Shown here: positions 46,356 to 48,824 of the stretch, in pieces
Numbering within the stretch: position 1 is the first letter of the stretch
How the letters are laid out: each line of letters opens with the position of its first letter
Source of the DNA: Caulobacteraceae bacterium
GTDB lineage: Bacteria; Pseudomonadota; Alphaproteobacteria; Caulobacterales; Caulobacteraceae
Assembly (NCBI GenBank): GCA_947441065.1
Contig: CANESI010000001.1
Location: 124,001 to 188,000 of the forward strand
DNA length: 64,000 nt
Direction: 5' to 3'
Made by a program: the position numbers and the translations under genes
Notes under the pieces: generated by a model
Databases searched by the model: none
Seen by the model: only the letters and a program-made list of their open reading frames with translations
Told to the model about the DNA's origin: nothing

Positions 46356-46439
46356 GCCCCCGTGGTGGAATGGTAGACGCGCTCGACTCAAAATCGAGTA
46401 CTGAAAGGTGTGTCAGTTCGAGTCTGACCGGGGGCACCA
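46356..46439 (+). tRNA. tRNA-Leu (anticodon CAA)
   Basis: Acceptor arm GCCCCCG (46356-46362) pairs with CGGGGGC (46429-46435). The D-arm is GTGGAATGGTAGAC. The anticodon arm is CTCGA-CTCAAAA-TCGAG, with anticodon CAA. A long class II variable region (TACTGAAAGGTGT) follows. The T arm is GTCAG-TTCGAGT-CTGAC. CCA is encoded (46437-46439). All stems are perfect. It reads UUG codons. Confidence 0.96.
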
Positions 46440-46475: not shown

Positions 46476-47198
46476 TTAGACTTGCGAACGCAAGCGATTG
46501 ATTGTTTGGCGTTCAAATTCCTGTGGGTTCTGAGCTGCGGCTTTTAGCGTCACAGTGTCGAGTGTCAGCGCGACCTTGCCGTCGGCCAACATGAGGCCTG
46601 CATCACATGCGGTGGCAAGGGTGCCCAAATCGTGCAGCGCCGTCACCAATGTCAGTCCATCAGCAACCCGTTCTCGCAGGACCTGACGCAGATCGAAGAC
46701 CGCTACAGGGTCAAGCCAGTTAAAAGGCTCGTCCAAGATCACATGGGTATGCCCGCCCACAAAGGCTGCGGCGATTGCGATCCTCTGTCTCATCCCAGCC
46801 GAGCAGTCGCCGATCCACCGATCGAGCAATGGGGTCAAGCCCAGCGCAAGGTCCAGCGACCCTAAGCGGGAGCGGACATCGTCTTTTGCGCCACTGGCCA
46901 GTTCGAGTACGTCACGGCCTCGCAAAGCGTTCGGAAGCATGTCGGCGGGCGGTGAGAACCCAAACCGCAGTGCCCGGCCTTTGCGATCATGACCCAAGGG
47001 TTCGCCATCCACCCAACAGGCTCCGTCGGCGAATGGGAGTCGGCCAGCCAAGGCGCGTAAGAGACTGGTCTTGCCTGATCCATTGGCCCCAATCAGCCCG
47101 AACCATGAGCCCCGCTCAACATTGAGATCGACCTCGTGGACAACCCGTTGCCCGCCGCGATCAACACAGGCTTGGGCAAGGCGAACACTGATTGTCAT
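46476..47198 (-). CDS. ABC transporter ATP-binding protein
   Basis: 240 residues from ATG 47198, which overlaps the permease stop (ATGA); an in-frame start at 47210 is less likely. Walker A is GANGSGKTS, Walker B is VILDEPFNWLD. The signature is degenerate (CSAGMRQRIAIA in place of LSGGQ). Switch His is in TALHDLGTLA. The cargo is unknown. The permease partner lies directly upstream. Base composition is more A/T-rich than the surrounding core genes, and the pair lies beside a tRNA gene, which suggests acquisition by transfer. Confidence 0.85.
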   Translation of the reverse strand: MTISVRLAQACVDRGGQRVVHEVDLNVERGSWFGLIGANGSGKTSLLRALAGRLPFADGACWVDGEPLGHDRKGRALRFGFSPPADMLPNALRGRDVLELASGAKDDVRSRLGSLDLALGLTPLLDRWIGDCSAGMRQRIAIAAAFVGGHTHVILDEPFNWLDPVAVFDLRQVLRERVADGLTLVTALHDLGTLATACDAGLMLADGKVALTLDTVTLKAAAQNPQEFERQTINRLRSQV

Positions 47199-48178
47199 GC
47201 CAGCAACCACCTTTTCGCTGCGCTTTTATGCTGTAATCGCCAAAGAACGGCCACCACGCAGAATGGCATGGCGACCGGCACCGTGAACGCCAAGAGCGTC
47301 AAAAGACCGGTTGTGACGAAAAGGACGAGTTCCGCGAGCCTTCGATTATAGAGGCTATAGGTGAGGATGCGGAAAGCAAGAAGTAGGAGCGCTGCCCCTG
47401 AAATTGCAAAGACTGCACCGGCCACGGCAGGGGTTATCACAAGCCAACAGCTCGTCACGGCCAAGGCGACGAACACGACAAAACCCTTAGCGTGATGCGC
47501 CAGTGTTGAACCTGTACCAAGACCGACCGTCGACATAAAGCGAATGACCCGGTCATTGACTGCCGTGAGCGCGAGGGTGAACAGAACCGTTAGGATGACG
47601 GCGACGGTCATCACCGCATCTGCCCCCCGCTCGCGCACCAATAGAAGCGACAAGAGCAAAACTAGGGCCAAAGCGATCCCGGTACCGGGTCTATGACAGG
47701 CGTCTAATAGGTTGAAACCAAGCCGCATCCTGCTGACCACAGGGCTCGCCTTCCAAACGATGGCGATCAACAGGACACAAAGTCCCCCGGCGACATAGCC
47801 GAAAAGGCCTATTGGTAGCGTCGATGGGCGAACAATGAGGGTCAGGACCGCCAATGTTGTCATGGCAAGTCCATGCCAGACACCCCCGTAGAATAGGCGT
47901 GTCGAACGGTGCAGCGCATCAGCCGCTAGGACCCCATGGTCACTGTGGTAGACCAGACGTTCCAATACCAGCCGTCCCACGGCGATCCCGCAACCAAGCC
48001 CTCCAGCCAAGGCCGCCCCGGCTATGATTGCCCAAGGCTTATCGGCGAACAAGACCTTGAGCATGGGAGGGAAGGCGAGAAAAAAGAGCGAAATCAACAA
48101 CCCATCTTGCCATCGACCAAATATGCGCCGGATCTGATTGACCACGATCTGACCATCATGACGCACTAGGCTGTTCAT
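47195..48178 (-). CDS. Multi-pass membrane protein, ABC permease partner
   Basis: 327 residues. I recognise no specific family. At least eight hydrophobic segments are visible, for example LLISLFFLAFPPMLKVLFA, AIIAGAALAGGLGCGIAVGRLVL, ALALVLLLSLLLV, AVMTVAVILTVLFTLALTAV and FVVFVALAVTSCWLVITPAVAGAVF. It shares an ATGA junction with the ATPase gene, so it is very likely the membrane part of a two-gene ABC exporter. No substrate-binding protein is present, which fits export. A shift to more A/T-rich composition is visible across the pair. Confidence 0.72.
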   Translation of the reverse strand: MNSLVRHDGQIVVNQIRRIFGRWQDGLLISLFFLAFPPMLKVLFADKPWAIIAGAALAGGLGCGIAVGRLVLERLVYHSDHGVLAADALHRSTRLFYGGVWHGLAMTTLAVLTLIVRPSTLPIGLFGYVAGGLCVLLIAIVWKASPVVSRMRLGFNLLDACHRPGTGIALALVLLLSLLLVRERGADAVMTVAVILTVLFTLALTAVNDRVIRFMSTVGLGTGSTLAHHAKGFVVFVALAVTSCWLVITPAVAGAVFAISGAALLLLAFRILTYSLYNRRLAELVLFVTTGLLTLLAFTVPVAMPFCVVAVLWRLQHKSAAKRWLLA

Positions 48179-48321: not shown

Positions 48322-48630
48322 TCAAGCGGCTTGAAGCTTTCTGATCATCGATATGTCCGTGTCGCGTTCGGCGATCCATAGGTCGTGGGCGGTCTGCATC
48401 CTCAGCCAGATGCCGCCACCATTTCCAAAAAACGCGCCCAGCTTTACCGCGACAGATGGCGATACCGGTTTGCGCCCATTCATCAAATCATAGACATGTT
48501 GCCGGGAGATGGAGAGGCGTGCGGCGAGTTCCACCTTCGTCAGCCCATTTATATCGGCGGCGTCGGCGAGCATTGCGCCGGGGTGGGGTGGGCAACGTGA
48601 GGTGTCGCGCTTTGCATAACATTCGATCAT
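48322..48630 (-). CDS. higA: HigA-type antitoxin (XRE family), apparently orphan
   Basis: 102 residues from ATG 48630, whose ATGA overlaps the stop of a 21-codon higB remnant. GAGG lies six bases upstream. The HigA order is visible: PPHPGAMLADA, the helix-turn-helix LTKVELAARLSISRQHVYDLMNGRKPVSPSVAVKLGAFF, and the C-terminal WLRMQTAHDLWIAERD. It should bind the palindrome upstream of the module and repress it. Only the first residues of the RelE-like toxin remain, so this antitoxin has no toxin partner here. Confidence 0.88.
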   Translation of the reverse strand: MIECYAKRDTSRCPPHPGAMLADAADINGLTKVELAARLSISRQHVYDLMNGRKPVSPSVAVKLGAFFGNGGGIWLRMQTAHDLWIAERDTDISMIRKLQAA

Positions 48631-48692
48631 ATCGCCCTCAATGATATTGCCCAAAGCTGGGCGACGGGTTTGCTGCGGAACGATTTGATCAT
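48627..48692 (-). pseudogene. higB: Remnant of HigB toxin gene (first 21 codons)
   Basis: The open frame reads MIKSFRSKPVAQLWAISLRAI and then stops. MIKSFRSK-x-x-x-x-LW is the start of RelE/HigB toxins, which are normally about 90 residues. The remainder, including the catalytic C-terminal region, is missing, which points to a large in-frame or junction deletion. The remaining ORF still couples to higA by ATGA and might now act only as a leader peptide. Confidence 0.75.
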
Positions 48693-48698
48693 GATTGT

Positions 48699-48721
48699 AA
48701 TGTAAGCCATTTGCTTACATT
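48699..48721. promoter_or_regulatory. Perfect palindromic operator of the hig module
   Basis: AATGTAAGC-CATTT-GCTTACATT: nine-base arms with no mismatch around five bases, ending seven bases before the higB remnant ATG. HigA proteins bind such palindromes over their own promoter. The site lies on the minus-strand side of the 130-base gap to the divergent acetyltransferase gene. Confidence 0.8.
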
Positions 48722-48824
48722 CGGCAAACTTTCTGTCAAAAATGATCCAAATGGCAAGGTCTTCCAAATTGTTATCAGGGCGATAGTGTGAGGCGATCCT
48801 AGGTCGCACGTCGAGAGACTCCAC

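Follow-up and report, generated by a model that had tools for sequence, protein, structure and literature searches.

A HigA antitoxin gene left with its probable operator beside a deletion-truncated higB in a Caulobacteraceae genome

The window analysed here, a stretch of 64,000 nucleotides from the draft genome of a Caulobacteraceae bacterium, carries on its minus strand a full-length antitoxin gene of the HigA family. In the order of transcription, a palindrome is followed by an open frame of 21 codons and then by higA (Table 1). HigA scored 67.1 bits against the TIGR02607 profile (cut-off 47.7), and a helix-turn-helix (HTH) DNA-binding domain was recognised with PF01381 (30.5 bits, cut-off 23); both scans were performed on a 110-aa frame that starts at an upstream TTG and contains the 102-aa protein. 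The initial annotation had described higB as reduced to its first ~14 recognisable residues, higA as full length with a good ribosome site, the palindrome as perfect over nine-base arms and the 21-codon frame as linked to higA by ATGA, and in all of this it was correct. The frame holds higB codons 1 to 14, with the same residue also at codon 15, the GAGGG motif stands 4 nt before the ATG of the 102-aa protein, the palindrome is exact (9+5+9), and the TGA of the short frame overlaps the higA ATG in an ATGA at 48630-48627.

Table 1. Features of the higA locus and the nearby tRNA gene, in window coordinates.
Feature	Position	Strand	Basis or remark
tRNA-Leu	46356-46439		
higA, 102-aa HigA-family antitoxin, full length with stop	48322..48630	-	ATG at 48630; TIGR02607 match, orthologues
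21-codon frame: higB codons 1-14/15, then frame-shifted codons; TGA overlaps higA ATG	48627..48692	-	
Shine-Dalgarno-like GAGGG, 4 nt before higA ATG	48635..48639	-	Sequence; same in G001, 1 base different in G006
Last nucleotides of higB with former TGA stop, now out of frame	48638..48646	-	Alignment to G001 and G006
GCAA at deletion junction	48647..48650	-	Breakpoint enumeration against G001
Palindrome AATGTAAGC-N5-GCTTACATT, probable HigA operator	48699..48721	.	Exact; core common to G001 and G006
Probable -10 element TACATT, 6 nt before ATG of 21-codon frame	48699..48704	-	Own reading
Probable -35 element TTGCCG, 17 bp before TACATT	48722..48727	-	Own reading; just outside the region first noted

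The locus was compared within a genus sample of 7 genomes and a family sample of 390 genomes. Close HigA orthologues were present in two of the six other genus genomes, G001 (95% identical) and G006 (89%), whose loci lie on the Caulobacteraceae MAG contigs CAISGS010000558.1 and CANFKD010000027.1, respectively; among the 390 family genomes, the next best HigA match was far weaker (5.7e-16 vs 8.6e-68 or lower). Both sisters carry an intact 92-aa HigB frame followed by HigA, and the HigB of G001, on which the profile was tested, scored 45.1 bits against PF05015. On the far side of the promoter, the same chemoreceptor (MCP) gene is found in the window, G001 and G006. Comparison with these two genomes carrying intact higB bears out the earlier proposal that the toxin was lost and the antitoxin and operator were kept. 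Decay of higA in sister strains had been named as evidence against the initial interpretation; higA is intact in both sister species, both of them toxin-bearing. The other four genus genomes, three of which are less than 90% complete, are uninformative on the locus, since neither the MCP gene (best match 44% identical) nor the 327-aa protein encoded downstream of higA in the window has a close counterpart in them. Since intact higBA is present in both sisters and in plasmid relatives, it would be the ancestral state, as judged on an unrooted triple in which each species is represented by a single draft genome, two of these having a completeness of 83%.

Relative to G001, 224 bp of higB are missing in the window as a single deletion between 4-bp GCAA repeats, for which enumeration gave five equivalent breakpoints, that is, a microhomology of 4 bp. 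What is kept of higB is 42 nt at its start and 9 nt at its end, and the 4-nt GCAA can be assigned to either side; the remainder thus amounts to 14-15 initial codons and 9-13 terminal nt, the latter including the former stop, now out of frame. Since 224 is not divisible by 3, translation enters a new frame after the junction and continues to the TGA that overlaps the higA ATG. In the sisters, the higB stop lies 7 nt before the higA ATG, and the ATGA link is a by-product of the deletion, since the frame shift creates both the 21-codon frame and the overlap. With 224 bp of higB gone, no intact HigB-family toxin gene adjoins higA in the window.

The neighbouring genes were also compared. Between tRNA-Leu and higA, the window contains genes for an ABC-type ATPase and for the 327-aa protein, which has no Pfam match (46476-48178). 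This pair adjoins higA in G006 as well, with a low dS between window and G006 (0.05-0.08) and a dN/dS of 0.53 for the 327-aa gene. It is absent beside higA in G001, since the 118 bases after the end of higA reach sequence of the tRNA-Leu region there, with identity over 47 nt to window positions 46445-46399. On the promoter side, a divergent GNAT acetyltransferase gene (PF13527, 48825-49325) separates the operator from the MCP gene in the window's genome, while in G001 and G006 MCP and higB are ~200 bp apart with no GNAT gene between them. At E<=1e-40, GNAT homologues with up to 70% identity were found in 46 of the 390 family genomes, a count that includes the genome of the window, and the gene itself matched no PADLOC model. 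Known GNAT toxins are paired in operons with RHH antitoxins. Since the gene in the window is divergent from higA, the idea of a GNAT toxin replacing HigB was set aside.

The initial annotation had named a complete toxin encoded nearby in another frame as refuting evidence. Six-frame genome searches with G001 HigB and PF05015 found no complete toxin near the locus in any frame, and none was noticed when the open reading frames around it were inspected by eye. In addition, no match to G001 HigB was obtained at E<=0.001 elsewhere in the window's draft genome, which is 97.5% complete, and within this draft HigA is therefore an orphan, with no cognate toxin. The sole PF05015 gene found in the genome is on contig C38 (104.9 bits), where a HigA of its own follows it; this HigA and the orphan share 34% identity over 70 residues. 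This second higBA pair is complete (L025, 1149-1761), and a different palindrome, TGTACC-GTTGAGT-GGTACA, was seen by eye upstream of it. Regarding a phage origin, two peptide patterns retrieved no HigA relative from viral_contigs; HigB was found at 39% identity in five Mannheimia phage records.

The operator core, GTAAGC-N5-GCTTAC, is shared by the window, G001 and G006 and fills the spacer between the probable -35 and -10 elements. In all three genomes, TTGCCG stands 17 bp before TACATT, and the higB start codon adopted here follows TACATT after 6 nt, so the transcript would probably start at or beside this codon and be nearly leaderless. The promoter scan omitted the TTGCCG/TACATT pair, which has 8 of 12 matches against a threshold of 9; on the minus strand it reported a different site, at 48653-48626. 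The same arrangement was found in all four Rhizobium plasmid loci examined, which were picked from the 10 entries listed out of 444 records: TTGACA is followed at a distance of 17 bp by TACAGT (two loci) or TACAAA (two loci), the start codon is 5-6 nt past the -10 element, and the two half-sites that we read in the spacer, GTCAGC and ACTTAC or close variants of them, are related to those of the operator. Judging by these four loci, a near-leaderless toxin mRNA may be general in the subfamily. The palindrome is the probable operator of HigA, through which expression would be autoregulated. In the window all 9 arm positions are symmetric, vs 7 of 9 in the sisters, and this more perfect palindrome could hint at maintained operator function.

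Further copies of the palindrome were searched for, as had been suggested. At up to 3 mismatches, the window has a single site for it (mean of 0.00 in 100 window shuffles), as does the draft genome as a whole. The core has a single exact copy in each of the three genomes, which argues against a regulon, and the operator copies therefore give no support to the earlier suggestion that HigA regulates other genes. At up to one mismatch, the core has 2 sites in the window's genome, 1 in G001 and 1 in G006, against 1, 2 and 5 sites, respectively, for a reversed-pattern control. Since the one-mismatch counts do not exceed the control overall, only the exact core sites are informative. The extra one-mismatch site of the window's genome, on contig C30, is inside a 540-codon open frame that reaches the end of the fetched stretch. 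With a single operator at up to 3 mismatches and one extra core site at one mismatch, no more than in the control, a multi-site regulon was discarded.

The locus resembles type II higBA modules (HigB PF05015/HigA TIGR02607) in its toxin-then-antitoxin order, its HTH antitoxin and its promoter palindrome. Such modules are intact, with the same promoter layout, in the two sisters and the four Rhizobium plasmid loci, whereas in the window the toxin gene has been destroyed by the frame-shifting deletion. Orphan antitoxins are well known: for 259 Klebsiella genomes, predictions of up to 2253 have been cited, of which a high percentage were judged to have arisen by degradation of intact systems and about 20% to be genuine orphans (PMC7354431). 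For HigA itself, the RASTA-Bacteria paper noted two orphan higA genes and asked whether they are relics or active (PMC2374986), and an orphan HigA was reported in Pseudomonas aeruginosa PA1-Petro (PMC9678696). In the available portions of these two papers, no toxin partner is reported alongside higA, as in the window; in contrast to those cases, both the deletion and the intact sister locus are visible here. E. coli YbaQ (PDB 2eby) is also an HTH protein, matching the window HigA at E=2.7e-5, and it was called most likely a solitary antitoxin on the basis of a VapB-profile match (PMC2374986). It is, however, distant in sequence, and the available portion of that paper mentions no toxin remnant for it.

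Retention of the antitoxin had been taken in the initial annotation to suggest that the repressor is still under selection, a claim that the sequence divergence of higA does not uphold. Between the window and G001, higA differs at 11 of 306 nt and includes an identical run of 207 nt, the longest for this pair in the five genes compared (up to 152 nt in the four flanking genes). For the same pair, dS is 0.078 in higA vs 0.13-0.30 in the flanking genes, and dN/dS is 0.31 vs 0.04-0.13, with small numbers of changes. Since the identical run is long and dS is low, part of higA shares a recent ancestor with a toxin-bearing locus, perhaps by recombination. Long identical runs are also found between other genome pairs, reaching 310 nt in the MCP gene between G001 and G006, and the region therefore looks mosaic. 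On the window branch, higA shows 5 non-synonymous (codons 2, 4, 5, 95 and 100) and 3 synonymous codon changes; the other two branches combined show 6 and 20, respectively (Fisher p=0.079, from few changes in an unrooted triple). The assignment of codon 4 to the window branch was a choice, since this codon is different in each of the three genomes. Among these 8 changes, no non-synonymous one falls in codons 6-94, a stretch that includes the HTH. With so few changes and such a run shared with G001, an intact higA is expected with or without selection.

The explanation that we consider likely is that a chromosomal higBA module lost most of higB in one recent deletion of 224 bp, which left the promoter, the operator and an intact higA, probably serving no need. 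HigA would still be made, by translation from its own ribosome site and possibly by coupling to the 21-codon frame, and would bind the operator between -35 and -10 and repress its own promoter. Without the toxin, such a self-limiting loop most likely meets no need of the cell, and its persistence would be explained by its low cost and by the recency of the loss. The apparent deletion could also be an artefact of assembly or a variant of a minority strain, given that the draft genome is in 83 contigs and that no other genome of the species came to light. We regard this as very improbable, since the locus is inside a 263-kb contig and a 4-bp junction repeat would be too short for assembler collapse; real deletions typically have such repeats at the junction, and an assembly error would be unlikely to leave one.

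Since relatives of the module live on plasmids, it is conceivable, if unlikely, that HigA is kept for anti-addiction, neutralising the related HigB of incoming plasmids so that their loss becomes harmless, a role that has been discussed for orphan antitoxins (PMC7354431). Relatives at E<=1e-5 are indeed common, in 444 of 72,556 plasmid records for the sister HigB and 286 of 72,556 for the window HigA, and the best among those listed are on Rhizobium plasmids, at about 66% identity for HigB and about 57% for HigA. However, no plasmid HigB reaches 80% identity (23 records are at 60-80% and 421 below 60%), the putative cross-neutralisation would have to span that distance, and a test of low power gave no indication of purifying selection after the loss. 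Quite unlikely, too, is the claim that toxin loss made a stand-alone immunity gene, in which HigA, under a sharpened operator, is retained as a defence against plasmid-borne HigB proteins related to the lost one. Co-option of HigA as a regulator of other genes, for example the divergent GNAT gene, would fit with that gene adjoining the operator here and not in G001 or G006, and P. aeruginosa HigA is said to act on other promoters (work cited in PMC9678696). We consider it very unlikely all the same: no second operator was found at up to 3 mismatches, the one extra core site at one mismatch equals the 1 site of the reversed-pattern control, the GNAT start codon is 103 bp downstream of the operator, which overlaps the predicted minus-strand promoter, and GNAT homologues occur in other genomes of the family.

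The window HigA is best read as a recently orphaned antitoxin that is probably still self-repressing, and its locus is a clear but ordinary case of a known type of leftover. It offers a clean case of how an orphan antitoxin originates, by one small deletion in place and with intact sister loci available for comparison. It also illustrates that a full-length antitoxin with its operator is weak evidence for selection when the toxin loss is recent. If anti-addiction were true, the window and sister loci would constitute a natural system in which to test it.
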